Of a stretch of DNA of 27,562 bases, positions 702 through 25,873 are shown piece by piece. The stretch covers positions 1 to 27,562 of IMG/VR virus record IMGVR_UViG_3300037187_000044, one strand, 5' to 3'. This DNA comes from a virus. Positions within the stretch are counted from its first letter, which is position 1; each line of letters starts with the position of its first letter. Position numbers and translations under genes: made by a program. The notes below the pieces were generated by a model. The model did no database searches. It saw only the letters and a list, made by a program, of their open reading frames with translations, and was not told the origin of the DNA.

Positions 702-3700
702 ATGGCTACTCTCAATGTAGGCGCGATGGCGGCCCGGCTGGGCCTCGATCCCTCAGACTTCCTCGACAAGATGAAGGGCGTGCAGGGATTCAACGGCTTC
801 GCTTCGGCCGAAATGTCGCGGCAGTGGAAGAAGACCGGACGCGATGGCCAGGAAGGCCTGCGCCTGATCGACGAAGCGCTCGGTATCCACGTAGCCCGGC
901 CCGTCGCGCGCATCGTGAGCGAGACCTTTCCCGCACTCGGGAAGGCCATGTCGAGCGTGTTGCCCACCGTGGCCTTTGGCGCCCTGGGCTATGCCATCTT
1001 CGAATTTGGCGAGCACGTTGCCCAGAAGATGACGGAGGCCAAAAAGAAAGAAGAGGAATATTCCGACGCCGTCCGTAAGACGCAGACCGTTTATGCGGAG
1101 TCCTCGGCCAAGAACGAACATTCAATCGACGCCGTGCGCGCAAAGCTGGCTGCTCTCAAAGGCGATCAGAGCGCCGAATTCAAATTCAAGGTGGCATCGA
1201 TCGACAGCCAGAATGTGGCAGACCTGGCGAAGCAGGTAGATGAACTGGTGGATGCCGAACGCCGGGAAGCCGCGGCCAACGCCGCGCGCATGGGCACTTG
1301 GGCCGCACTCGCTAATATCTGGCACGGTATCGTCTCGACCGATGCGGAGCTTGGGGCCGAGAAAATCGGCGCCCAGGTCAAGATCTTCCAGGAGAAATTC
1401 GCCGACCTCGCCCGCACCGACGGCCTCGCCGGCACCACCACCGCCGCGGCCTACCTGAACAAGGAACTGGACGCCGCGAAAAAGACTCTCGACGACATGC
1501 AGGCAAAGGCCGGCAAGATGATCCTCGCGCCCTCCGTGGGTATGGGTGCGGCGCCCCAGGCGCGTTTGATCGTTACCCCGGAAGAGCTGGCGGCGGCCAA
1601 TGCCTATTACGCGGCGCTCCAAAAGGCTGCTGCCCTGCAGAAGCAGATCGTCACCGATAAAGGCGATGCGGAGAAAAAGGTCGCGGCAATCGAAGCCGGC
1701 GCGCGTCACGCCGAGCAGCTCCGCAGTGAGATTGAGCAGATCCACCGGCTCGGCCAGACGTCGACGGCGGCGGCCGCCGCCGCGGAACTTTTGGCGGCCA
1801 GCACGGGAAAAGGGACGGCCGCCAGCATCTTGAACGCTGCAGCGGGCGAAGCCCAAAAGAAGATTCTGGATGCGACGGCCGAAGCCAACACAAAACTTTT
1901 CAGCGGCACGCATCAGCCGGTGTCGAGCGATAAGACCGTGCAGGATGCCCTGGCCGAATACGCGGTCATCGAGCGCCGGAATGCTCTCGTCGACCAGAGC
2001 GCAAAGTCAGTCGAAGAATTCAATCGCAAACTTGGGGAACAGAGCACGCACGATGATGAACGTATTTCAGCCCTGAACGCCGAAGCCGACGCTCACGGCA
2101 AGGTTGCTGGCGAGCAGGCGAAAGACCTGGCGACGCTGGTCCCGCTGCGCGAGGAACTGCAGCACCTCAAGGACGTGTATGCCAGCCTGCCGGCCGCCGA
2201 TAAGAGAGTGCCCGCGATCGGACCGCCGGCCAATGAGGATCAGGCCTTCGCGCAGCAACTAGCCGCGCAGATTGCCAGAGGCGCGGCGGGGCTGCAGGCG
2301 GAGACGGAAAAGAAAACCAACGTCATCCTTCCCGCAATCCAGACGGGCGCCTTTCGCGGGGAGTTAAACAAAATCGAAGAGCAGATGAAATCGCTCGCCG
2401 GCGCCGAAGTTTCACCGTTTGCGAAGATCGACGCCGAAGTGCAGAAACTGACTCACGATCTGAGTCTCACGTCACCACAGGCAGAGGAATTACACCGCGC
2501 TCTTATCTCTGTGCAGAGCGTCAAGATTGCCGGCGAGTTCGAAAAGGTTGCCGAGAAATTAAAGGAAGCGGGAATCGAGACCGCCGCTCTCGCCTCGGGA
2601 TCTCCGTTCGCCAAATTGGATGCGGAAGCGCAGAAACTTGGGCGCGAATTCGGCCTGTTGCCACAGCAGATTGCATTGGTGCGCCAGGGCCTGATCGAAC
2701 TGCAGGCTCTCGAAAACGCGGGCAAAGCCTTCGGCGCCGCCGACTCCATGAATGCCGGCGGAGGCAAGATGCAGGAGCTGCGCCAGCAGATGGACGCGCT
2801 CAGCCGCGCCTCGAGCACCGGCCGCACCGATGACGGCACCGCACTTTCAGCCGACGACTTGGCCGCGGTGCGCCTGGAAATGCAGGCCATTCAGGGGGAA
2901 CAAGACCAGATCCTGCTCAAGACCGGCGGCATCGATGCCGGAATCAAGGCCTGGGCCGATGACCTACAGCGTGTGAAATCGGAAGGCGAGTTTGTTTTCG
3001 ACATACTGAATCAGGCCTCCAAGGGCTTTGAAGACAACGCGGCAAAATCGCTGATCGACATGCTGGACGCCCAGAAGGGCGGCCACCGCAAGATGATCCA
3101 GGAGCTGCGCACCATGTGGGCCGGCTATTTCAACAGCCTGGCCGAGATGGCAATTAAGCATGGCCTGGCGGAGCTGCTGGCGCCGATCGGCAAACAGATT
3201 ACCGGGCCACTCGGGAAATTGTTCGGGAAATCGGCCGGTGCCGCTACGGGAGCTGCGGGCGCGGCCAGTATGACCACCGCCGGCACCATGTTGCAATCGG
3301 CTGCCACCGCGCTGCTGAGTGCGGCCGCGGCCTTGCGCGCAAGCTCCATGAGCGGAGGCGGCGGTCTGTTTAGCGGCGGCGGAGCTGGTGACGCCATCGA
3401 TGCGGGCGCTCCAATTCCATTCTTTGCCGAAGGCGGCGATGCTACACCTGGATCCAGTTTTATCTCCGGAGAAGCCGGCGCCGAAGAAGTGAGCCTCAAT
3501 CGCTCCGGAGGTGCGCACGTTACGCCGCTCGGCATGGGCGGCGGTAAAGGCGGTGACGTCTACCAGCATTTCGATCAGCGCGGCGCCGTGGTCACCGAGG
3601 ACCTCATGACGAAAGGCGATGCCCTGCGTATGGCGTCCATGACCGAAATGCGCTCCGTGAACAAAGCCGTGGCTCTCAGCAGTGAGATCGCACGGCGCTC

Positions 3701-3713
3701 GTTAGGAAGATAA
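702..3713 (+). CDS. Tail tape measure protein
   Basis: 1003 residues. It acts as the ruler that sets tail length and is ejected with the DNA. Evidence: very long Ala/Lys/Glu-rich helical protein; hydrophobic segment at about residues 78-107 (ALGKAMSSVLPTVAFGALGY...), as in most tape measures; long coiled-coil region (about 110-530); two imperfect tandem repeats beginning SPFAKIDAE at residue 571 and SPFAKLDAE at 634 (period 63 residues); a C-terminal part with AMIKHGL-like helices, a Gly-rich stretch (about 880-900) and the signature FAEGGDATPGSSFISGEAGAEE that ends lambda-GpH-type tape measures. No clear Shine-Dalgarno precedes ATG 702. The 63 bp encoding residues 78-98 recur exactly in a leftward gene near 24.2 kb. 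The usual tail-tube and chaperone genes are not found immediately upstream. Confidence 0.92.
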   Translation: MATLNVGAMAARLGLDPSDFLDKMKGVQGFNGFASAEMSRQWKKTGRDGQEGLRLIDEALGIHVARPVARIVSETFPALGKAMSSVLPTVAFGALGYAIFEFGEHVAQKMTEAKKKEEEYSDAVRKTQTVYAESSAKNEHSIDAVRAKLAALKGDQSAEFKFKVASIDSQNVADLAKQVDELVDAERREAAANAARMGTWAALANIWHGIVSTDAELGAEKIGAQVKIFQEKFADLARTDGLAGTTTAAAYLNKELDAAKKTLDDMQAKAGKMILAPSVGMGAAPQARLIVTPEELAAANAYYAALQKAAALQKQIVTDKGDAEKKVAAIEAGARHAEQLRSEIEQIHRLGQTSTAAAAAAELLAASTGKGTAASILNAAAGEAQKKILDATAEANTKLFSGTHQPVSSDKTVQDALAEYAVIERRNALVDQSAKSVEEFNRKLGEQSTHDDERISALNAEADAHGKVAGEQAKDLATLVPLREELQHLKDVYASLPAADKRVPAIGPPANEDQAFAQQLAAQIARGAAGLQAETEKKTNVILPAIQTGAFRGELNKIEEQMKSLAGAEVSPFAKIDAEVQKLTHDLSLTSPQAEELHRALISVQSVKIAGEFEKVAEKLKEAGIETAALASGSPFAKLDAEAQKLGREFGLLPQQIALVRQGLIELQALENAGKAFGAADSMNAGGGKMQELRQQMDALSRASSTGRTDDGTALSADDLAAVRLEMQAIQGEQDQILLKTGGIDAGIKAWADDLQRVKSEGEFVFDILNQASKGFEDNAAKSLIDMLDAQKGGHRKMIQELRTMWAGYFNSLAEMAIKHGLAELLAPIGKQITGPLGKLFGKSAGAATGAAGAASMTTAGTMLQSAATALLSAAAALRASSMSGGGGLFSGGGAGDAIDAGAPIPFFAEGGDATPGSSFISGEAGAEEVSLNRSGGAHVTPLGMGGGKGGDVYQHFDQRGAVVTEDLMTKGDALRMASMTEMRSVNKAVALSSEIARRSLGR

Positions 3714-4351
3714 TGCCTTTTACCTACCCCCTCACGCCGCCGGTGATTGCCGGCATCGGCCCGCTCGAGTTCACGCTCGCGCTCGAAGCCATCGTCGCCG
3801 AGAACGATTCCCCTTTTGATTTTTCGGAACAGGTCTTCCTCTGGCCTGGCGACATGTTCACCGCCGAACTGACCATGCCGCCCATGCAACTGGTGCAGGG
3901 AGAGCAGTGGGTTTCTTTTCTCGCCATGCTGGTGGGCAAGTACGGAACGTTCCTGATGGGCGATTACAACCGGCCCACAGCGCAAGGCCCAATGAGCGGG
4001 GCCCCGGTAGTGAACGGGGCGAACGCCAGCGGCTCGAACCAACTCCTGGTGCGTGCTGCAACGGCTTCCATTACGAATTGGGCCGTGGCCGGCGATTACA
4101 TTCAGGTGACAGCAGCCGGCGGCCTGCAACGGATCCACAAAGTTCTGGCCAATGCCAACAGCTCCTCCGGCGGTCTGGTCACGCTGCAGATTCGTCCGAG
4201 CATTCGCGAGGCGCTTGCGGATGGCGTCACTATCGTCACCGCCAACTGTGCGGGCACTTTCCGCCTACAATCGAATCAGACGCCATGGAAGGTCGACAAG
4301 AACAAGGTTTACACGATCAGCTTCAAAGCCCGAGAGGCGATGCTGCCATGA
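3713..4351 (+). CDS. Distal tail / tail-tip assembly protein
   Basis: 212 residues. Starts in a TAATG overlap with the tape measure stop, so translation is coupled. The pattern of an N-terminal PFTYPLTPP start, a 'FLWPGDMFTAELTMPPM' strand pair, 'WVSFLAMLVGKYGTFLMGD', a central Gly/Ala-rich insertion, and 'FRLQSNQTPWKVD...YTISFKAREA' at the end matches a conserved siphophage tail protein found directly after the tape measure, thought to join tail tube and tip (distal tail-like). I recognise the family by pattern only. The position tape measure - this gene - hub - peptidase - tip protein is the standard siphophage order. Confidence 0.72.
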   Translation: MPFTYPLTPPVIAGIGPLEFTLALEAIVAENDSPFDFSEQVFLWPGDMFTAELTMPPMQLVQGEQWVSFLAMLVGKYGTFLMGDYNRPTAQGPMSGAPVVNGANASGSNQLLVRAATASITNWAVAGDYIQVTAAGGLQRIHKVLANANSSSGGLVTLQIRPSIREALADGVTIVTANCAGTFRLQSNQTPWKVDKNKVYTISFKAREAMLP

Positions 4352-4581
4352 GTTCCAACTGGCCCACGCGGCCGCATCATCAATATGTGGATATGAAGCC
4401 GTTGACCCCGGCCGAACAGCAAGCCGTCAAGCCCGTGGAATGGAATGCGGCCAGAGCCTGCTTTGAAGGTTTCCAGACGGCCGTAATCAATTGGGTCCCT
4501 CCGATGGAATGGGACGATCTGCCCGAGACCCTCCGTGCCGGATGGCTCGCCGCCGCAAGAGCGGCTCGCAGCAGCTTCTAG
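4348..4581 (+). CDS. Small conserved tail-module protein
   Basis: 77 residues, beginning MSSNWPTRPHHQYVD. Its ATG overlaps the previous stop (ATGA), showing translational coupling. The protein has no signal peptide or membrane segment; it contains a Trp-rich stretch (NWVPPMEWDDLPETLRAGW) likely to form short helices. No known fold recognised. Because it is coupled between two tail-tip genes it is probably a minor tail or assembly factor. An alternative is a leader whose translation opens the downstream gene, whose start lies 24 bases beyond its stop. Confidence 0.6.
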   Translation: MSSNWPTRPHHQYVDMKPLTPAEQQAVKPVEWNAARACFEGFQTAVINWVPPMEWDDLPETLRAGWLAAARAARSSF

Positions 4582-4604: not shown

Positions 4605-6983
4605 ATGCCCCGATCTCTTTCCCCCACATTTCTAGCGCAGCTTGGCAGCACGGGCTCATCGCAGCCCGTGCTTTTTGTGGTGCTGGCATTCGCCGACCAA
4701 ACGCTTTATCTGTTCAACGGCATTGGCAGCTTTGTGGCCGCCGGATCCCCCTATAGCCCGCTTTCCACGTTTCCTTATGGGCAGACCTTCACGGGCGTGG
4801 GCTGGCTGGGAAAACTTTCCTCCATTCCTCAGACCAGTAAAGTGCAGGCGCAGGGCATCACGCTGGCGCTTTCCGGCATCCCCTCGGCCCTGGTGAATGA
4901 AGCCGTGGCGCAGGTGCGCATCACGGGCACTGCCACCGTGTACCTCGGTTTTTTCAACCCCTCCACCGGCGCCCTGATTCCCGATCCGTTGCAGCTCTTC
5001 GCGGGCGCGCTCGATGTTCCCACACTCGATGATTCCGGCGCGACCAGCACGCTCTCCATCACCGCCGAAAATCCCCTGCTGCAATTGAACGAAGCGCCGA
5101 ATCGCCAGTTCGATGACATGGACCAGCAGATTTATTTCCCCGGCGATCTCGGTCTGAGCTTCCTGGGCGCGCTGGGAAACCTGGCGCTGTTCTGGCCAGC
5201 GCCGGTCGCGAATGCCAGCGTGTTCGCCGTGGACTTTATTTTGACGCCGAATGGCGCCGATATCGGCGTGGGCGACACGCTCCAGATGTCCGCCACACTC
5301 AACTACAGCGACACCAGCTACTACACCATTACCGGCAGCGGCCACTCGGGCAGCGGGGCGGCGTGGATAGGCGGCATTTCGAGCAGCAATCCAAAGATCG
5401 CGACCGTGAACGAAAACGGACTGGTGACGGGCATCAGCCCCGGCATCTGTCTGATCATCGTGCGCGCCGTCTATCCCTACGGTACCCCCGCGCCCGCGTC
5501 CGAGAAACGCGTGGCCTGCACCGTCATCGTGAGCAGCGGCGCAGCTCCGGGCAATCTTCTAATGGGAGCGAGCACGAGCACGCCCGGCGGTGTTCGGCAG
5601 ATATCGACCGCCTCCAACCTCATCAGTCAATATCCGATCACGAGCAGCGATTCTGTCTGGACTGCAAATGGCGGCACGATTGTCCTGTCCGGGGGCATGT
5701 GCGTCGATGCTTCGGGCAATATGTACATTTTCGATGCCGGCGGCAGCGCGATCTACAAGGTTCCATTTGCCAGTGGTGTTGCGGTTAGGATTGCTGGCAC
5801 CGGAACCGCTGGGCACTCTGGCGACGGCGGAGCAGCCACAAGCGCTCAAATCGCCAGTACCTCGACAGGGATCGCCGTGGATGCGGCGGGCAACGTTTAT
5901 TACTGCGATTACCAGTATGTGCGGGCCATTAACATGCAGCCGACGACGCAAACGCTTCTGGGCGTGTCGATCCCCGCGGGCTGCATCGCAGGAGTGGCCG
6001 GAATTTGGAATTCAGGGGGCTATACGGGAGATAGTGGCGCTGCCACGTTGGCTCACTTAAATACCCCCTGCGGCGTGGCGTTCGATTCGGCGGGTAATTT
6101 GTACGTCGCCGATTCCAACAATAACGCCGTCAGGCAGGTCACCACGGCCGGGATCATCAACACATTCATTGGCGGCGGTGGTCCCGATATCGCGGGTCAC
6201 TCAACGCAGCACTCTGGCGATGGCGGCTCTTATCTGACGGCTCAAATCTGCGCTCCCACGGCGCTCTGCTTTGACGCTAACGAGAATCTCTACATCTTTT
6301 GCGCCAATACAGGAAATAGTTTCAGCAGTGGCGGCTCTCCGATCGGCAACGTTCTGCTCTATTCTTCGGTCACTCAAGTTGCAGCAGCCGTCGGCGTGTA
6401 CCCATCTGTGAGCACGGCTTATACGGCAACCGCAGTTGTCGGAGGAATTCCAGCAGGGAACCTGGCTGGAGGCATGTTGAACGTCGTAGGACTCACCGGC
6501 ACACCGGGAGTGGCGGACAACGGCGAATATGAACTCTGGCCGGGCGCAGGCAGCTCAGGTTTCGCTCTGCAAAACCCATACGGAGCCGTTCTAACGGGGG
6601 GCGCCGGAGCGGCCTATGCGGAGGGCGCCATACCGACCATTCGAGTGATCAATCTCAGCGCCACAACGCAAGTATGCTGCGGCATCTCCATCCCGGCCGG
6701 GGCTATCAACTCCGTGGCGGGGCTGCACTACGCAGGCTTCAGTGGCGACGGTGGGTCCGCTCTTTTCGCGCAGCTTGGCCTGAACACCTATGGGATCGCA
6801 GTTGATGGCGTGGGGAATCTTTATATCGCCGATATAAGCAATAAGCGCATCCGAATGGTCAACGCTGCCGGAACGATTAGCACTTATGCCGGCAACGGGA
6901 CCAATGCCAACACCGGAAATGGCGGCCCGCCTGGGGCGGCGGAAGTCCGGGTCTGGGAAGGTCTCTGCTTCGTGCTCTCCTAA
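4605..6983 (+). CDS. Tail hub protein fused to Ig-like domain and NHL beta-propeller
   Basis: 792 residues from ATG 4605 (the frame is open further upstream, but that would overlap the previous gene). Three parts are visible. (1) Residues 1-205: a tail hub-like domain with 'SIPQTSKVQAQGITLALSGIP', 'TVYLGFFNPSTGALIPDP' and 'STLSITAENPL', as in phage proteins that follow the distal tail protein. (2) About 208-300: a bacterial Ig-like (Big2-type) domain, 'GADIGVGDTLQMSATLNYSD ... SSSNPKIATVNENGLVTGISPG'. (3) About 335-790: at least five NHL-type repeats, e.g. GIAVDAAGNVYYCD, GVAFDSAGNLYVADSNNNAV, GIAVDGVGNLYIADISNKRI, each with a GDGGAA-type turn, interrupted by one other beta-rich module (about 580-680). 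The propeller is probably surface-exposed on the tail tip and may bind a receptor. NHL repeats of this style are common in Acidobacteria. Confidence 0.8.
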   Translation: MPRSLSPTFLAQLGSTGSSQPVLFVVLAFADQTLYLFNGIGSFVAAGSPYSPLSTFPYGQTFTGVGWLGKLSSIPQTSKVQAQGITLALSGIPSALVNEAVAQVRITGTATVYLGFFNPSTGALIPDPLQLFAGALDVPTLDDSGATSTLSITAENPLLQLNEAPNRQFDDMDQQIYFPGDLGLSFLGALGNLALFWPAPVANASVFAVDFILTPNGADIGVGDTLQMSATLNYSDTSYYTITGSGHSGSGAAWIGGISSSNPKIATVNENGLVTGISPGICLIIVRAVYPYGTPAPASEKRVACTVIVSSGAAPGNLLMGASTSTPGGVRQISTASNLISQYPITSSDSVWTANGGTIVLSGGMCVDASGNMYIFDAGGSAIYKVPFASGVAVRIAGTGTAGHSGDGGAATSAQIASTSTGIAVDAAGNVYYCDYQYVRAINMQPTTQTLLGVSIPAGCIAGVAGIWNSGGYTGDSGAATLAHLNTPCGVAFDSAGNLYVADSNNNAVRQVTTAGIINTFIGGGGPDIAGHSTQHSGDGGSYLTAQICAPTALCFDANENLYIFCANTGNSFSSGGSPIGNVLLYSSVTQVAAAVGVYPSVSTAYTATAVVGGIPAGNLAGGMLNVVGLTGTPGVADNGEYELWPGAGSSGFALQNPYGAVLTGGAGAAYAEGAIPTIRVINLSATTQVCCGISIPAGAINSVAGLHYAGFSGDGGSALFAQLGLNTYGIAVDGVGNLYIADISNKRIRMVNAAGTISTYAGNGTNANTGNGGPPGAAEVRVWEGLCFVLS

Positions 6984-6997
6984 TCCACGGTCACCCA

Positions 6998-7456
6998 ATG
7001 AAACTGAAACGATATTCCAACTGGCCTACCCGGCTGCATCTGCTTATCCAGAATTCGAAAGACGTCCCGTTCGATTGGGGGCGCCGCAACTGTGGCCTGT
7101 TCGTAACACAGTGGATTCGCGAGGCCACCGGCGTGGACCTGGGCGCTCCCTTCCTGGGCAAAGCTACCGATGAAGCCAGCGCGGAAGCGATCTTTCTAAA
7201 CGGCTTTTCCGGGCCCACTGCGCTCGGCGATTTTGCGGCTTCGATTGCGGCCGCCAATTCGATTGCGGAAGTACTGCCAGTCACCTACGCGCAGCGCGGC
7301 GATGTGGTTTGGGTGGATAACAGCACGGCTCTAAACCCCAGCGCTTATGGCGCCCTAGGCGTGGTGAGCACAGACGGCAAAAATGCCGTTTGTATGTCGG
7401 AAAAGGGAACGGTGCGCGTGCACATGCAGCACTGGAAACGCGCCTGGAGAATTTGA
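6998..7456 (+). CDS. NlpC/P60-like tail-associated cysteine peptidase
   Basis: 152 residues. The segment PFDWGRRNCGLFVTQWIREATG matches the active-site helix of a phage tail-tip cysteine peptidase family (consensus '(F)xWGxxDCCxFxAdWv'), with the presumed nucleophile in RRNCG; the residue before Cys is Asn where Asp is usual. A later 'VTYAQRGDVVWVDN' and 'YGALGVVSTDGKNAVCM' fit the beta core with its histidine/polar partners less clear. Such proteins sit at the tail tip and cut peptidoglycan during DNA entry. Placed between the hub and the tip attachment protein, as expected. The stop is only one base ahead of the next start. Confidence 0.72.
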   Translation: MKLKRYSNWPTRLHLLIQNSKDVPFDWGRRNCGLFVTQWIREATGVDLGAPFLGKATDEASAEAIFLNGFSGPTALGDFAASIAAANSIAEVLPVTYAQRGDVVWVDNSTALNPSAYGALGVVSTDGKNAVCMSEKGTVRVHMQHWKRAWRI

Positions 7457-7457
7457 A

Positions 7458-9590
7458 TTGTCGAAAACCATTGAAGAAATCGGGCTAATTGTCGGAGGTC
7501 TGGCATTTGCCATGGCCACCGGGCCGATCGGCATCGCCATGCTTGGCCTGAGCGCGAGCGCGGCCTCGGCCATGATCGGCATTGGACTGACTACGGCCCT
7601 CGCCGGCGTGGGCCTGGCCATTCGCCCCACCAATCGGCCGGTTGGAGCGGCGAACACAATCAGCTTCGGCAACGGGAGCAGTCCGCGGCGCGTGCTCTAT
7701 GGCCAGTTCCAGACCGCGGGCGTGCTCACCGATGCTAGCTTTCCCGCGTCGGCCAACCTTTCAACGACGGCGCAGTACTTGCACCTGGTCTATACGCTGA
7801 CCGGGCACGAAATCTCGAGCTTCGATGCCGTCTCGATCGATGGCACGGTCTATAACTTCGGCACTAATGGGCTCATCGGCGATCTCTATTACGGCGGCGG
7901 CGTGGGAGACAATCTGTGGCACGTCATGCCCGGAGGCGGCGTCGCCGTCAACGACATCTACTGGCAGCACGTTTTCTTTGAATTCGATTTTGGCCGCCCT
8001 CTCAATACCGGGCAGCCCTTTCCGGCTCTGGCTTCGGGGGATTCCTCCTGGACTTCGGCCTGCCTGCAGCGCGGCTGCGCCAAGGTGCATGTGATCCTGC
8101 GCGCCGATGCTGGCTGGACGGTGCTTTTCCCCAGCGGCCAGCTCCCCAACATTCAATTCCTCATCACCGGGAAAAAGCTGATCGATCCTCGCATCGTTAC
8201 CGCCTGGCAGCCTTTGACGGTGTATGCGAAATATCAGTACGCTCTGGATTCCGCAGGACACATCTGGGTGCAGACAAACACCAGCGGCGCCAGCGGCGCC
8301 GGCCCGGCCAGCCCGCTTATTTATGTCAGCAGCCCCACCACCGTGAGCGATGGTACCTGCAGTTGGACCAGCTACGGCTATGGCCAAACGCAGATCTCAG
8401 AAGGCGTCGACGGCAATCCGCAGGGCCACTTGGTGAATGCGCGCCTGGTGAATGATGCCTGGGCGGCAGGATCGACATACGCCGTTAACTATGTAATCGA
8501 AGCCCCGCTTGGCTACGTGCAAATGTGCACCGCGAGCAGCGGAGCCGTGGGAAGCACGGAGCCCGCATTCGCTCTGACTCTCGGCGGCGCCACCACCGAT
8601 GGCGGCGCCACCTGGACCTGCCTGGGCCGGAGTTGGCACGCCATCAACCCCTCGAACCCGGCGCTGATCGTCAATGACTATCTGCAAGATACCGACGCCG
8701 GCCTGGGGGGCGCGCTGAATACGATCGATATCGCTTCGGTCTGCGCGGCCGCCAACGTGTGCGAAGAGCAGGCCCTCATCATCTGGAACGCCGATAACAC
8801 CGTGGTTTATGAGAACCAGTACGCCTGCGATGGCATGTTCGATCACAGCTCGACGCGCGGCGACGTGCTCAGCTCACTGCTGGCCTCGATGGCCGGCTGG
8901 GCGATTCCGCCCGGCGATCTTTGGCACGTCATCGCCGGAAGTTTTCAGACACCCACACTCAGCCTGGGCGATGGCGACATGCGAGGGCCGACCAAGGGCG
9001 ATTTCCGGCTTTCGATGCGCGATGTCTGCAACTCGGTAAAGGGAAAATTCTCGCCCGCCTTTATTCCAGCCAATCCGGCGGCGCTGGTTTCCATGACCAA
9101 CCTGCCGGGCATTTGGCAGGAACAAAGCTTCCCCGCCTACCAGGCGAACGGCTCGGCCGGCAAGCCTAACTATCTCAATTCGGAAGATGGCGGCCAGATC
9201 AAATGGCTCGACCTCAAGCTGGATTTCACCACCAGTATGTGGATGGCGCAGCGCCTGGCGAAAATCGCCATGATGCGCACGCGCTTCCAGCAGACTCTAA
9301 CGCTGGCCTGCAAAACAATCGCGCTGCAACTCGAGGCGAGCGACGTTTTCGATTTCACTCACGCACGCTGGAACATTGTGAGCCAGCCCTTTGAAGTGAC
9401 CCAGACATCAATGACCATGGAACCCGCCGACGGGCGCGCTTCGGAAAAAGACGGGCCTTCGCTCGGCGTCGATCTGACGGCGCGGCAGACCGATCCTTCG
9501 GTCTACGAATTCCAGGGGCCAAGTTCTGCCACCGTATTCGGCGAGTACTCGCCTTATGGAATTACCGGCGTGATGACGGGTGTGGAATAG
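7458..9590 (+). CDS. Tail tip attachment protein (J-like) with carbohydrate-module-like inserts
   Basis: 710 residues from TTG 7458, chosen because a GGAGA Shine-Dalgarno (7446-7450) lies seven bases upstream and the previous gene has just ended. N-terminus: Gly/Ala-rich hydrophobic stretch (about 9-55), then 'GNGSSPRRVLYGQFQTAGVLTDAS ... LHLVYTLTGHEISSFDAVSIDG', typical of central tail-tip proteins. Two related inserted modules, about residues 250-307 and 335-390, have the form 'W..(L)T.Y....Y..(...)(G)..W(V)QT..SG.SG...P....(..)T(V)SDGTCSWTSYG' and 'DGGATWTCLG', a carbohydrate-binding-like module common in phage tail proteins. The last third (FRLSMRDVCNSVKGKF..., 'LEASDVFDFTHARWN') resembles the baseplate part of tip proteins. 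Probably the baseplate hub and adhesin platform. The cell target is unknown. Confidence 0.8.
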   Translation: MSKTIEEIGLIVGGLAFAMATGPIGIAMLGLSASAASAMIGIGLTTALAGVGLAIRPTNRPVGAANTISFGNGSSPRRVLYGQFQTAGVLTDASFPASANLSTTAQYLHLVYTLTGHEISSFDAVSIDGTVYNFGTNGLIGDLYYGGGVGDNLWHVMPGGGVAVNDIYWQHVFFEFDFGRPLNTGQPFPALASGDSSWTSACLQRGCAKVHVILRADAGWTVLFPSGQLPNIQFLITGKKLIDPRIVTAWQPLTVYAKYQYALDSAGHIWVQTNTSGASGAGPASPLIYVSSPTTVSDGTCSWTSYGYGQTQISEGVDGNPQGHLVNARLVNDAWAAGSTYAVNYVIEAPLGYVQMCTASSGAVGSTEPAFALTLGGATTDGGATWTCLGRSWHAINPSNPALIVNDYLQDTDAGLGGALNTIDIASVCAAANVCEEQALIIWNADNTVVYENQYACDGMFDHSSTRGDVLSSLLASMAGWAIPPGDLWHVIAGSFQTPTLSLGDGDMRGPTKGDFRLSMRDVCNSVKGKFSPAFIPANPAALVSMTNLPGIWQEQSFPAYQANGSAGKPNYLNSEDGGQIKWLDLKLDFTTSMWMAQRLAKIAMMRTRFQQTLTLACKTIALQLEASDVFDFTHARWNIVSQPFEVTQTSMTMEPADGRASEKDGPSLGVDLTARQTDPSVYEFQGPSSATVFGEYSPYGITGVMTGVE

Positions 9591-10680: not shown

Positions 10681-11121
10681 ATGATCACCTGCATAAAAGA
10701 CCAGCTCATCCGCGATGAAGGCGTGCGCCTGCAGAAATACCTGGACTCGCGCGGCTTCTGGACGATCGGCGTCGGCCACAACCTGGACGCGAATCCCCTG
10801 CCCTACGACATTTCGCAGGGCATCTCGATGGCGCTGGCCACGCAGATTGAAGGGGATGACATTGCGCGTGTGACCGCGCAGCTCTTTGGCGACCTACCCT
10901 GGCTGCGGTCGCTCGATGTGGTAAGGCAGGGCGTCTTCCAGAACATGGGCTTCAACATGGGCGAAGGCGGAGTACTCGAATTCCATCACGATCTGGCCGA
11001 CACCCAGGCCGGCAGGTATGTGCAGGCCGGCGCCGACATGAAGGCCTCGCTGTGGTACGGGCAGGTGGGCCCGCGGGCCCAAAGGCTCGTGCAGCAGATG
11101 ATCACGGGCGTCTGGCAATAG
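10681..11121 (+). CDS. Phage lysozyme, T4-type (GH24)
   Basis: 146 residues. It cleaves the glycan strands of peptidoglycan at lysis. The catalytic motif is plain: IRDEGVRLQKYLDSRGFWTIGVGH gives Glu13, Asp22 and Thr28, spaced exactly as Glu11-Asp20-Thr26 in T4 lysozyme. Then 'NMGFNMGEGGVLEFHHDL' corresponds to the conserved Asn-Met-x-Phe-Asn region and 'SLWYGQVGPRAQRLVQQMITGVW' to the C-terminal RA.R...M..G.W signature. No signal peptide, so release depends on the neighbouring holin-like gene. ATG 10681 follows AAGGGAAA. First gene of the lysis cassette. Confidence 0.9.
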   Translation: MITCIKDQLIRDEGVRLQKYLDSRGFWTIGVGHNLDANPLPYDISQGISMALATQIEGDDIARVTAQLFGDLPWLRSLDVVRQGVFQNMGFNMGEGGVLEFHHDLADTQAGRYVQAGADMKASLWYGQVGPRAQRLVQQMITGVWQ

Positions 11122-14119: not shown

Positions 14120-15253
14120 ATGGCACAAAACGCAGCCGCCGGCTTCCAGTTCCCAGCTTCCCGAAAAACGCCTCACAATCCAGGGCTCGCGCTGGTGCTT
14201 CCGCGCCAAGCGCCGGCCACTGATTTCCAGCTCACCCCACCCATGCCTCGCAGAATCCCACGCCACACGCCGGCCGGTCCCGGCTCTCCTCCGGAGAAAC
14301 GGAAGCCGCGGCGCCAGCGCAAGCCTCCCGTCTCGCTCAGCGATGAGCAGCTCCTCGCTCTGTTGACTCGAGCGAAGGAACATCGGCAGCGCGATTACGT
14401 GATGATTCTGGTCACCTACTGGCACGGGCTGCGGGCAAGCGAAACCGTGGCCCTGAAAGAGAGCGATTTCAACCTGGACGATGGCACGGTGCAGATTGTT
14501 CGAGGCAAGGGCAGCGAGGGGGGCAGCCACACCCTGCAGGAGTTCCCCGACAACCCGCTTTTGAACGAAGCGGTGGTGGTGGCGGACTGGCTGGCGAATC
14601 GGGGGCAATTCGGGGTCAAAGGCGGTGCCAAACCGGGGCGTGTGCGGAATCTCGCACAGCAGCCAAAGTGGAAATTGAAGGGCGAGATCCTGGATGATCG
14701 AGTTCCTGGAAGTGGGACCGACCCTGCAAAAATGCAACAATCTACGAAGATTGTTACATTTTCACCTGACGGGCCCGAGAAATTGCCTCCGGGTGATGTC
14801 TGGGCTTGGCCGCCTGGCGAAAAACCAGAAACTTACCATTTTCCTCCCGCGTTTGAGGGAGCGCCCTGCGAAAAGCCAGCGGGTGGCTCCGAACCCCCAC
14901 CCGACCCCTCCGCCTCGCTCCTAGCCCCCTCAGCGGCTCCGGATACCCCATCAGAGCTGCTTTTCCCCATTTCCCGGGTCCAATTCTGGCGTATCGTCCA
15001 CGGCTATGCCCTCGCCGCCGGCATCCCCCGGCGGAAGTGCAAAACCCACATGCTCAAGCACACCATCGCCAAGCACCTGGTGCGGGCCGGGCATCCGCTG
15101 AACGAGATCCAGGAATGGATGGGCTGGTCATCGATCGAGACCATGAACTGGTACACCCGCGCCGACGAAGAAGAGCTGGGCACCCGGATTGGGGCTACCA
15201 TTCGAAGCAAGGGCGGCTTGCGCCAGGTCCAGCAGGGGAGTCTGTTCTCATGA
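14120..15253 (+). CDS. Tyrosine recombinase, catalytic domain with long insertion and Arg-to-Lys change
   Basis: 377 residues. Tyrosine recombinases cut and rejoin DNA at att or inversion sites. Visible residues: Arg105 in YWHGLRASE, Lys130 in VRGKGS, His310 and Lys313 in THMLKHT, Trp336 in WMGWSS, and nucleophile Tyr345 in NWYTR. The second catalytic arginine (HxxR) is Lys here. There is no N-terminal core-binding domain, only a basic Pro-rich tail of about 70 residues. Between about residues 172 and 278 a Pro/Gly-rich stretch interrupts the fold; without it, 'GVKGGAKPG' would join directly to 'SELLFPISRVQFWR'. That insertion holds a 34-bp inverted repeat. The start could be internal (MPRRIPRH, residue 42), but a promoter ends right at ATG 14120. 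Coupled to the next gene by ATGA. It could be an integrase, an inversion enzyme or an accessory partner of the second recombinase. Confidence 0.85.
   Translation: MAQNAAAGFQFPASRKTPHNPGLALVLPRQAPATDFQLTPPMPRRIPRHTPAGPGSPPEKRKPRRQRKPPVSLSDEQLLALLTRAKEHRQRDYVMILVTYWHGLRASETVALKESDFNLDDGTVQIVRGKGSEGGSHTLQEFPDNPLLNEAVVVADWLANRGQFGVKGGAKPGRVRNLAQQPKWKLKGEILDDRVPGSGTDPAKMQQSTKIVTFSPDGPEKLPPGDVWAWPPGEKPETYHFPPAFEGAPCEKPAGGSEPPPDPSASLLAPSAAPDTPSELLFPISRVQFWRIVHGYALAAGIPRRKCKTHMLKHTIAKHLVRAGHPLNEIQEWMGWSSIETMNWYTRADEEELGTRIGATIRSKGGLRQVQQGSLFS
14729..14762. repeat. 34-bp near-perfect inverted repeat inside the recombinase gene
   Basis: Arms of 15 bp with one mismatch (AAAATGCAACAATCT and its partner AGATTGTTACATTTT) flank a 4-bp centre (ACGA). 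The site is AT-rich in GC-rich surroundings and lies within the insertion of the recombinase gene. It could be a regulator binding site, a recombination crossover site or an RNA hairpin. Confidence 0.75.
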
Positions 15254-17551: not shown

Positions 17552-17583
17552 CCACTTGGATGCACAGGCCCGGTGTATATATA
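17552..17583 (+). promoter_or_regulatory. Promoter upstream of the methyltransferase gene
   Basis: -35 TTGGAT (17556-17561), 16-nt spacer, -10 TATATA (17578-17583) inside an AT-rich TATATATAAAA. The -35 is within CCACTTGGNNGCACAGGCC, shared with the promoter at 14080. A leader of about 100 bases would follow before GTG 17698. Confidence 0.6.
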
Positions 17584-17697
17584 AAACCCTCGATCGTCTT
17601 TCGGGGGTCCTATCGATCCGACGGGGGTAACCGATTGGCCAAGAACGACCTGACACCGTTGAAGCTGGTTTATCCTCATACGGACAGAGGAAAACCT

Positions 17698-18312
17698 GTG
17701 GAAGCTGTGTATAAGGGCCGCGCCCATGGTGGCACGCGGGAGTGTGATCCCTCGCGAAAGCCGCACGCCGGCCATCCGGAACTTGGCACGGCTTCGATCG
17801 AGTACGAAACGCCGCCGGAACTTTTCGATGTGCTCAACCGCGAATTCGGGTTCACCGTCGACGTCTGCGCGACCTCCGCCAACGCCAAATGCAAACGCTT
17901 TTTCACGGTGCGGGAAAACGGCTTGGCACAACGGTGGGCTGAGTCAGGTTCCGCCGTGACCTGTTGGATGAATCCCCCCTACGGCGACCAGGCCATTACC
18001 CGCTGGATGGCGAAAGCGCATGGCGAAGCTCTGGCTGGCGCCACCGTGGTTTGCCTCGTGCCGGCGCGCACGCATACCGCCTGGTTCCACACCGTCTGCG
18101 GGCAGGCCGAAGTGCGATTCCTGCGCGGCCGTCTTCGCTATGTCGGCACCGACGGCGAAGCGCCCTTTGCGCAGCTCGTCGTCATCCTTCGCCCGTCGCT
18201 CGACGGCAAAACGCTTGGCCGCCCCTGGGTAATGAAACCATGGGAGTGGCGCCCGCTGTCAAAGCAGCGCCTGCTGGATCTGGCAAGCCTCCCGGTAGCA
18301 AGCGGCCAATGA
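17698..18312 (+). CDS. Phage DNA N6-adenine methyltransferase (Dam-type)
   Basis: 204 residues from GTG 17698, chosen for its AGAGG Shine-Dalgarno (17686-17690) seven bases upstream; TTG 17635 is an alternative. It methylates adenine N6 using S-adenosylmethionine. The phage family pattern is clear: 'YETPPELFDVLNREFGFTVDVCA' (SAM-binding start), 'CKRFFTVRENGLAQRW', catalytic NPPY at residues 92-95 in CWMNPPYGDQAITRWMAKA, 'GATVVCLVPARTHTAWFH' and 'VRFLRGRLRYVG...APFAQLVVIL'. Members of this group often modify GATC, protecting phage DNA or changing gene expression; specificity here cannot be read from sequence. Coupled by ATGA to the next gene. Confidence 0.9.
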   Translation: MEAVYKGRAHGGTRECDPSRKPHAGHPELGTASIEYETPPELFDVLNREFGFTVDVCATSANAKCKRFFTVRENGLAQRWAESGSAVTCWMNPPYGDQAITRWMAKAHGEALAGATVVCLVPARTHTAWFHTVCGQAEVRFLRGRLRYVGTDGEAPFAQLVVILRPSLDGKTLGRPWVMKPWEWRPLSKQRLLDLASLPVASGQ

Positions 18313-23725: not shown

Positions 23726-23998
23726 TTAACTGCCAACAACATTGCCCGATCGCTTCCGCTCCTGATCGAACTGCACCAGGAACGGCTGCGGTCGCGGCAC
23801 AACAAACGGGCGCGCACGCTGCGGGCTATCCTTGGCTTCGCTCGCACCAGTCGGTACTCCATTCACAGGGCGGCTCTGGGTAGGGTGAAAATTCCTCTCG
23901 CGCGAAACGTAGACGCGCACGCGCCAGCGCCGAATCGCCCACACCGCGAAGGGCAGCGAGAAACAGAAACCAAGGACGATGCAGTCGAAGAGAGTCAA
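23726..23998 (-). CDS. Small membrane protein
   Basis: 90 residues from TTG 23998, whose first bases overlap the upstream stop (TTGA) and which has GAGGAGG upstream. Residues 3-22 (LFDCIVLGFCFSLPFAVWAI) form one membrane span followed by Arg-rich RRWRVRVYVSRERN, giving an inside-positive tail of about 65 mostly polar residues. A single-span regulator, superinfection-exclusion factor or lysis modulator are possible; none is shown. Next gene follows after 18 bases. Confidence 0.55.
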   Translation of the reverse strand: MTLFDCIVLGFCFSLPFAVWAIRRWRVRVYVSRERNFHPTQSRPVNGVPTGASEAKDSPQRARPFVVPRPQPFLVQFDQERKRSGNVVGS

Positions 23999-24300
23999 GC
24001 GGCCTCCTCGATCAGACCCAGCTCAAGAGCCAGGTGAATGGTTTCCGCGAAAGGGCGCGCTTCGGCGTAGGCCTTCTCTACACATGCGGGATTAGAACAG
24101 ACGTCATCGAGCAGCCAGCCGCAGGAAATGAGTTGCGTCGACGCATCGGCCGGAACGATCGCATAGCCCAGGGCGCCAAAGGCCACGGTGGGCAACACGC
24201 TCGACATGGCCTTCCCGAGTGCGAAGGGGAATGTGACGGCGGCAAACCGGCACGGCCGGCGCTCGGTGCAACCGCAGAATTTACATCGTTGGACGGCCAT
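23995..24300 (-). CDS. Cys-rich small protein carrying an insert from the tape measure gene
   Basis: 101 residues, first gene of the leftward operon (ATG 24300 with GGAAGG). The ends resemble a small phage zinc-finger-like family: 'CKFCGCTERRPCRF' at the start and 'CGWLLDDVCSNPACVEKAYAEA' after it. Between them, residues 27-47 (ALGKAMSSVLPTVAFGALGYA) are identical to tape measure residues 78-98. The 63 bp that encode them (24161-24223) are identical, in the same reading frame, to 932-994 on the other strand. The insert is strongly hydrophobic and could create a membrane hairpin. This is either a real gene fusion or an assembly error; the surrounding frame is intact. Confidence 0.7.
   Translation of the reverse strand: MAVQRCKFCGCTERRPCRFAAVTFPFALGKAMSSVLPTVAFGALGYAIVPADASTQLISCGWLLDDVCSNPACVEKAYAEARPFAETIHLALELGLIEEAA
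24161..24223. repeat. 63-bp inverted duplicate of tape measure gene segment 932-994
   Basis: Complementary to 932-994 with no mismatch over 63 bases. Outside this block the two loci quickly differ, though a few short matches continue on each side (TTCCC.. before, ATC after). The reading frame of the tape measure is kept at the second site. Confidence 0.9.
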
Positions 24301-24514: not shown

Positions 24515-25873
24515 ATGAACCGATCCCACGCCAAAACTGCCCGCCCTTCGCCCACTGTCTTCTCTTCCCTTTATGGCACGGTGCGCGTCTACACTCCCCG
24601 CCACATTCGCGGATGCCGTCTGAGCGATACCCGCGACAACCATTGCTCCTGCCCTAAGTGGCTGTACAAAAACGCGGGTGGCCTTCCTCCCGTGCAAGAG
24701 GCGGCCAAGACGCCCAGCTTCACTGAGGCCTGCGAGGTCGCGCAACGCTGGCTCCGGGGAATGGATCCGGAGATTCGCGCCGCGCGCGCACTGGTCACCC
24801 CTCCCGCCGACGCTTTCAGCGTCGAAGCCGCCCTTGAGCAATACATGGCGGTGCTCAAGCGGCGCCGGCTGAGCGAGGACTATGTGGGCGGCATCATCCG
24901 TCCCGTCTTTTGCCGCCGCAAGCCGCGGAAGTACAACCGCGGCCGCCGCGCTCTCAACGTGAGCCTGCTCGATTTTCTGGATCGCCGTTTCCCACGCGCC
25001 ATCGCCCTCAGGGAAGTGACTGGCACGCTGCTCGATGAGTGGGTCGATCACTGGCAGTCGAACGATCTGACGTCGAAGCAGTGGCGCATGCAGGCCACAG
25101 CTTTTTTCAAGTGGGCGATCAGCCGCGGAATGATCTCGGCGCTGCCCGTTTTCGATAAGGGCGAAAGCATTAAAGCGGGAAACCGTTGCGGCCACTTCAG
25201 CGAAGAGCAGTTCAATCGCATCCTTGCGGCGCTTCCCTTCTACAAGAGCCGCACCCGCGCGCTGCCTCCGAACTACGCCGAGCGCCTGCGCGCCTTCATG
25301 GACCTGGGCCGCTATGGTGGCATGGCGGTTTGCGATATCGTCCTGTTCCGCCCCAAGGAAAATCTGGACAGCAATAACGTCCTGACCTATCGCCGTCTGA
25401 AAATCAAAAAGACCATCCAGCTCGCTCAGGTTTTGCTCGAGCCTTCCGTGGCGCTGCGGCTGCGTTCGATCCCACTCGAACCGGGTTGCGAGGCCGATCA
25501 GCCGTTCCGCTTTCTCAAGCTCACTGAGGATCGAAGCCGCGGCATCTGGCGTGAGCGTTTTCAGAAATTGTGCGAGAAGGCGGGCATTACGGAAATCGAA
25601 ACCGAGATCGGAACCCGGCGCCGTCCGCATCCCCACATGCTGCGGGATACCTGCGCGATTGAGGCCATCGTTCGCGGCGTGCGGCTGGACAACGTAGCTA
25701 GGATGCTGGGGCATGCTTCCGATCAAATGACGCAAAAGGCATATCTGACTTGGACGCGGGCGCGCATGGATTCCTCTATCGAAGACCAGCGCTCGGTTCT
25801 AGCCCGCGTGCAGGTCCCGGTCCCGGCCGACGACGACGATGCCACCGACGGGCCCGGCCCGCTTGTTAACTAG
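24515..25873 (+). CDS. Tyrosine recombinase/integrase with altered first catalytic box
   Basis: 452 residues. N-terminus: 'RHIRGCRLSDTRDNHCSCPKWLY', a Cys-rich motif common in acidobacterial integrases, then a helical 'AKTPSFTEACEVAQRWLRGMD' arm-like part; a core-binding domain (about 110-230, 'FSVEAALEQYMAVLKRRRLSEDYV', 'VDHWQSNDLTSKQWRMQATAFFKWAISRGMI'); catalytic domain from about 240. Catalytic residues: His374 and Arg377 in HPHMLRDT, His400 in MLGHAS, nucleophile Tyr410 in KAYLTW. The first box reads RYGGMAVCD (266-274), where an Arg is expected after 'GL/GM' or two residues later; neither is Arg. Activity may therefore be reduced. The 3' end overlaps a leftward HTH gene. Probably the phage integrase because the HTH gene next to it is Xis-like. 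Confidence 0.88.
   Translation: MNRSHAKTARPSPTVFSSLYGTVRVYTPRHIRGCRLSDTRDNHCSCPKWLYKNAGGLPPVQEAAKTPSFTEACEVAQRWLRGMDPEIRAARALVTPPADAFSVEAALEQYMAVLKRRRLSEDYVGGIIRPVFCRRKPRKYNRGRRALNVSLLDFLDRRFPRAIALREVTGTLLDEWVDHWQSNDLTSKQWRMQATAFFKWAISRGMISALPVFDKGESIKAGNRCGHFSEEQFNRILAALPFYKSRTRALPPNYAERLRAFMDLGRYGGMAVCDIVLFRPKENLDSNNVLTYRRLKIKKTIQLAQVLLEPSVALRLRSIPLEPGCEADQPFRFLKLTEDRSRGIWRERFQKLCEKAGITEIETEIGTRRRPHPHMLRDTCAIEAIVRGVRLDNVARMLGHASDQMTQKAYLTWTRARMDSSIEDQRSVLARVQVPVPADDDDATDGPGPLVN

Follow-up and report, generated by a model that had tools for sequence, protein, structure and literature searches.

The tail-tip gene at positions 4605 to 6983 of virus record IMGVR_UViG_3300037187_000044 raises the question of how a tail hub protein came to end in an NHL beta-propeller and what such a propeller might do at the tip of a phage tail. 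We analyzed the whole of the stretch in which this gene lies, a linear 27,562-base fragment (here, the window). A first-pass annotation had placed a hub-like domain, a Big2-like Ig domain, and NHL repeats in this one tail-tip gene and had proposed that a host-derived propeller could serve there as a new kind of adhesin. The combination of domains is borne out by a phrog_2048 match (2.7e-28), the model of the Ig domain, and a TEN_NHL match (1.6e-20).

The tail-tip genes and the parts of the hub protein

The genes of the tail tip and the parts of the hub protein are as follows.

702..3713, + strand: probable tape measure protein, 1003 aa, assigned by position and length; without a Pfam or PHROG match
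3713..4351, + strand: Dit (distal tail protein); phrog_1302, E 8.3e-28
4348..4581, + strand: small 77-aa ORF separating Dit from hub; relative L006 has a counterpart
4605..6983, + strand: hub-Ig-NHL protein, 792 aa, ATG start
4605..5204, + strand: gpL-type tail hub domain, residues about 1-200; phrog_2048 "tail protein," E 2.7e-28 over residues 4-198
5217..5537, + strand: Big_2-like Ig domain, residues 205-311; Pfam score, model, and structure and profile searches
5538..6980, + strand: NHL beta-propeller, residues 312-792, the acquired module of 481 codons; Pfam, model, fold matches, and codon usage
6300..6644, + strand: blade insert of about 115 aa, residues 566-680, in one blade; matched to no family, with GC3 at its lowest and codon usage at its most atypical
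6998..7456, + strand: DUF6950 protein; PF22262, E 5.1e-26; occupies the position that the tail peptidase gene has in RcGTA
7383..9590, + strand: gpJ-like central tail protein; phrog_5616, 1.9e-38, and phrog_31, 3.3e-15; the start may be 7383 or lie near 7458

The order tape measure, Dit, hub, DUF6950 protein, gpJ-like protein is GTA/lambda-like; for comparison, published accounts give the order in RcGTA and lambda as Dit, hub, small peptidase-slot protein, and megatron/gpJ (PMC7296036, PMC10721106). The start of the hub ORF at 4605 is backed by residues P2 and R3, which are invariant in 12/12 aligned hubs; no obvious ribosome-binding site was seen upstream of it. Among the window proteins scanned, no other tail-fiber-like product was found outside the tail-tip set, and as the window is a linear fragment, further adhesin genes may sit beyond its ends.

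The protein is a hub of the gpL/RcGTA-g13 type from a siphophage tail tip. Besides the phrog_2048 match, a tblastn search of phage records with the hub protein gave "minor tail protein L" of CRP-406 as the top match (2e-20), and the best 50 Foldseek matches of the hub model included the lambda tube protein gpV, the tail tips of T5 and DT57C, and other baseplates, with lambda gpL and RcGTA not among these 50. RcGTA g13 and lambda gpL share with the window hub both membership in the phrog_2048 family and the gene order given above, but the window hub is without their four-cysteine iron-sulfur domain after the hub domain (there are 0 cysteines before residue 282) and has in that place the Ig domain, with the C-terminal NHL propeller added. 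Lambda homologs without the iron-sulfur cluster have been reported, and the portion after the hub domain is described as variable, with a different fold in LSH1 and a reduced form in Jersey (PMC13243795). In lambda gpL this portion lies on the outer surface (PMC10721106), and three hub copies together with gpJ or megatron make up the last ring in lambda and RcGTA (PMC7296036, PMC10721106).

The Ig part scored 22.1 bits with Big_2, just below the Pfam cutoff of 22.8, and structure and profile searches matched it to LigA/LigB, S-layer, and Big_2 structures; in view of the sub-cutoff score and the LigA/LigB fold matches, we call it Big_2-like. Its model is mostly confident over residues 205-311, with confidence falling to about 60 near residues 291-300.

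For the C-terminal part, Pfam searches recovered TEN_NHL (1.6e-20), SBBP (1.7e-8), and NHL (2.8e-6). PF25021 reached 73.8 bits against a cutoff of 27.1 and PF01436 reached 27.5 against 20, and with the NHL model of Pfam itself just a single stretch passes. By motif we located five NHL-type blade starts, at residues 364, 422, 490, 553, and 730, in keeping with the earlier count of at least five repeats. The first and last strands of the propeller would together form a sixth blade, and seven blades rather than six are possible. The insert of about 115 residues appears to sit in the blade that starts near residue 553. No family match was found for it; it may resemble an FCCH-type domain of the sort present in phage proteins, an assignment that we do not claim.

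Modeling of the final 481 residues from a 26-row alignment (25 NHL rows added) gave a mean pLDDT of 69.2 and a pTM of 0.73, with zones of low confidence at model residues 1-45, in the insert (model residues about 258-340), and at the C-terminal end. The first Foldseek match of this model was a bacterial teneurin-like protein (9ifo; 2.8e-18). VIA-align, which compared only chains that Foldseek had already ranked, gave Z 28.5 for the SOQ1 NHL domain (7djl_C; rmsd of 3.4 over 311 residues), Z 28.3 for the NHLRC2 NHL domain (6g7w), and Z 27.7 for 9ifo. The match of the predicted fold to solved NHL propellers is thus far above chance, and the propeller that had been expected from structure prediction is present in the model, with a Z of about 28 to solved NHL propellers. 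A full-length model made without the NHL rows (pTM 0.33) supported the hub and Ig parts and did not form the propeller; a mixed hub and NHL alignment was misaligned and was left out.

A 67-nt piece of the tape measure gene (932-998) recurs inverted and 99% alike at 24157-24223, near the integrase region and inside a small minus-strand ORF (23995-24300). This inverted repeat may reflect a real transfer or an assembly artifact.

Relatives of the hub and the point of junction

A search with the whole protein recovered 11 viral loci, with all matches within residues 1-345, and a search with an alignment of those relatives recovered 35 loci from 45 stretches, with matches within residues 1-311. A hub profile run over 208 sequences (22,270 ORFs) identified 56 hub ORFs. 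Removal of the window, its copy L001, and repeat copies (L022, L191-L204, and L207) left 38 hubs, and removal of L025, which is cut at its 3' end, left 37. L029 and L030, cut at the 5' end and complete at the 3' end, were kept, and the apparent near-copies L027/L028, L032/L033, and L035/L036 are counted apart among the 37. One stretch, L120, has an in-frame TAG inside its match.

These 3'-complete relatives take two forms: in 24/37 the hub ends after the Ig domain, 100-114 aa past the hub domain, and in 13/37 (the short form) it ends 1-10 aa past the hub domain. None of the 37 distinct relatives with an intact 3' end carries an NHL propeller on the hub. Hub alone (13 relatives), hub with Ig (24), and hub with Ig and NHL propeller (the window) form a series that offers a near-snapshot of the gain of a large domain. 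The two closest relatives (L002 and L003; 74% identical) have the hub stop, and then the start of the next gene, right at the junction, and from that same stop point the frame of the window continues for 481 codons before the same next gene follows. As the aligned sequences place it, the NHL propeller frame is joined to the hub C terminus exactly where the relatives stop.

A pattern search at the DNA level for the NHL core retrieved 56 stretches of viral contigs, and no hub match was found among their 1638 ORFs. The domain order hub-Ig-NHL did not turn up elsewhere in the sequences searched: it occurs in 0/37 complete relatives, with 0 hub matches in those 1638 ORFs. The hub profile likewise found no relative in the genome_contigs collection. 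A hub-domain match was present in 3/396 genomes of the phylum of the Terriglobia metagenome-assembled genome (MAG), all of the short form; the other 34 genomes with a match had, among the matches listed, the Ig-like part only.

Among the Ig-form relatives, 21 extend far enough upstream of Dit for a phrog_2448 gene to be looked for there, and 19 of them have one (L002 and L006 include it only in part); the window does not. We considered the propeller as a substitute for this missing gene, an idea weakened by L015 and L026, two relatives in which neither phrog_2448 nor the propeller is present and which show that a propeller need not take the place of the gene. The phrog_2448 protein (L004:1814-2863 and its counterparts; about 350 aa), encoded between tape measure and Dit, is itself an adhesin candidate for these phages, and its counterpart in L012 has a weak polysaccharide lyase match. 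L004 also encodes a 961-aa protein (L004:2864-5749) with a C-terminal Dit sequence and three Big_2 stretches, in which domains were gained on Dit and not on the hub.

Source of the propeller and its counterparts in other phages

The codon usage of the propeller, compared with that of five neighboring tail genes, gives a z of -7.85 (0/2000 simulations as low), with the five tail genes ranging from -3.9 to +1.3 when each is compared with the others. The blade insert has the most extreme codon usage (z of -5.7). GC3 is 64.4% in the propeller and 56.5% in the insert, against 66-77% in the neighboring tail genes.

In samples of four phyla, with at most five candidates scored per genome, propeller matches at E <= 1e-18 were found in 17/297 genomes of the phylum of the Terriglobia MAG (best, 103.7 bits), 4/299 of the phylum of Ralstonia (83.7 bits), 2/296 of that of Mucilaginibacter (79.9 bits), and 0/288 of that of the Akkermansiaceae MAG. 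Terriglobia belong to the Acidobacteriota. An acidobacterial origin of the propeller is favored because matches concentrate in the phylum of the Terriglobia MAG, and the nearest propeller relatives are Acidobacteriota NHL proteins, which accords with the acidobacterial style of NHL repeat recognized at first reading. Two of these proteins (L208 and L210) resemble the window propeller in their TEN_NHL/NHL repeats and SGDGG turn but are without a hub and are about 46-49% identical to it over part of its length. The three Acidobacteriota genomes with a short-form hub match also carry strong propeller relatives. The host of this uncultured virus is probably an acidobacterium.

Together, the clean junction relative to L002 and L003, the foreign codon usage, and the Acidobacteriota best relatives indicate a recent and well-bounded gain of a host-type NHL module by a tail hub. 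The propeller, of a type widespread in secreted proteins of bacteria, probably derives from a secreted NHL protein of an acidobacterium, either directly or by way of another phage that had captured such a protein. Thus, of the proposal that the propeller is host derived, the added module and its Acidobacteriota-type relatives stand, while the searches turned up no donor above about 50% identity, and that across only part of the propeller. Such a gain means that a conserved hub, and not fibers alone, can accept a host-type module.

Beta-propellers are known from published receptor-binding proteins, namely, phi11 Gp45, PRD1 P2, phiKZ gp131C, and the endosialidases (PMC4901313). Like the candidate described here, these proteins (Gp45 being from a Staphylococcus phage) have a propeller in a receptor-binding or host recognition protein, but they are separate receptor-binding proteins rather than hubs and are not described as NHL. 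NHL repeats have been reported in the tail fibers of the Nitratiruptor phages NrS-2 and NrS-3, with repeats that differ between the two (PMC9723563). The NrS-2 fiber NrS2_61 has an Ig-like domain followed by a propeller whose repeats score as SBBP in Pfam, and its gene lies directly after a DUF2460 gene. DUF2460 is a Dit-type family. NrS2_61 thus resembles the window hub in having an Ig-like domain and then a propeller, with its gene adjoining a Dit-type gene, but differs in its N terminus, its SBBP-scoring repeats, and its naming as a fiber rather than a hub; N-terminal kinship between the two was ruled out (hhalign probability of 0). When 50,697 phage records were searched by tblastn with the propeller, nothing was recovered at 0.01, and since the NrS-2 propeller is present among those records, this search misses distant propellers.

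A PHROGs scan of nine NHL proteins from the 56 NHL-motif stretches identified a minor tail protein with internal NHL repeats (L187:6992-10297, from IMGVR_UViG_3300044720_000003; phrog_837, 3.4e-43), encoded two genes after a 1304-aa tape-measure-like ORF. This protein and the window hub are both tail proteins with NHL repeats, but the former belongs to phrog_837 and has its propeller before a conserved C-terminal part; it provides a separate, independent example of a tail protein that bears NHL. Other NHL-motif stretches encode a fiber-like protein with Mtd_N, collagen, and NHL domains (L146:3-4292) and an NHL protein that matches a structural family (L163); in L013, found by another search, NHL is joined to MBG domains. 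To call the propeller a new kind of adhesin was therefore too strong, given the propeller receptor-binding proteins, the published NHL fibers of NrS-2 and NrS-3, and the L187 tail protein. In the literature searched, mostly outside subscription journals, we found no description of an NHL propeller on a tail hub. The novelty lies in the comparison, that is, in a propeller on this hub that is absent from 37 complete relatives; modular tips and propeller receptor-binding proteins were already known.

Possible roles of the propeller

On balance, we favor the reading that the protein is a tip hub with an outward NHL propeller of acidobacterial type, borne on an Ig stalk and binding a surface ligand. 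The Ig domain would take the outward place held in lambda gpL and RcGTA g13 by the iron-sulfur/oligosaccharide-binding part, and three propellers would project from the tail tip on Ig stalks. One face of the propeller, enlarged by the 115-residue blade insert, would bind a ligand such as a polysaccharide or an outer membrane protein and thereby bring the tail tip to the cell, where the hub, the DUF6950 protein, and the gpJ-like protein would share the work of opening the tail. By analogy with lambda gpL, the propeller would be exposed at the tail tip, and a receptor-binding role for it is likely. It is the best antireceptor candidate in the window, because it would project outward, the phrog_2448 gene is absent, and no other fiber was found among the scanned window proteins.

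The propeller might instead be decorative, adhering weakly to capsule, extracellular polymer, or soil surfaces rather than serving as the specific receptor-binding part, which we regard as unlikely, though well worth weighing. Weak carbohydrate binding is a suggested role of Ig-like domains on phage tails (PMC10721106), and the propeller adjoins such a domain; moreover, L015 and L026 do without both propeller and phrog_2448, and 37/37 complete relatives do without the propeller. However, a complete propeller, one blade of which carries an elaborate insert, exceeds a stick-on domain, and the window holds no further fiber-like candidate.

A reading that we hold to be improbable is that a captured acidobacterial surface propeller acts as the antireceptor by binding the same partner or glycan as the host protein, with host recognition changed via the hub rather than a fiber. 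To our knowledge, few ligands of acidobacterial-type NHL propellers have been described, and the junction supplies a precise cut point for asking whether such propellers bind cell surface partners.

There is a small chance that the propeller is an enzyme domain, e.g., a tail-tip depolymerase of the polysaccharide lyase or lactonase-like type. Propellers are used by phage endosialidases (PMC4901313), and virginiamycin B lyase is among the structural matches (Z of about 26), but the top structural matches are NHL propellers not described as lyases, and the Pfam SGL and Vgb_lyase scores fall under their cutoffs.

That assembly falsely joined a phage hub gene to a bacterial NHL gene is very hard to credit. 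The record does come from a metagenome collection, the added part does have foreign codon usage, and the copy of the 67-nt tape measure piece elsewhere in the window shows that odd joins can occur; yet the 481 codons are in frame, 14 bases separate their stop from the tail gene that follows, tail genes flank the propeller on both sides, and a chimera would require two exact joins at a natural gene end. The two ends of the propeller also seem to resemble two parts of one closing blade. It is just as implausible that the propeller is a passive spacer, an assembly aid, or a degenerating, functionless passenger, for no stop codon interrupts the reading frame and the NHL blade motifs have been preserved, even though some of the blades have diverged and codon usage is at its most atypical in the insert (residues 566-680).

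Elsewhere in the window, two different integrase genes occur within the 27.6-kb fragment (14120-15253 and 24515-25873; Phage_integrase, 2.4e-24 and 2.9e-10), a GC-rich palindrome at 11050-11097 lies within the 3' end of the lysozyme gene, and a DNA methyltransferase is encoded at 17560-18312 (phrog_111, 1.5e-46).
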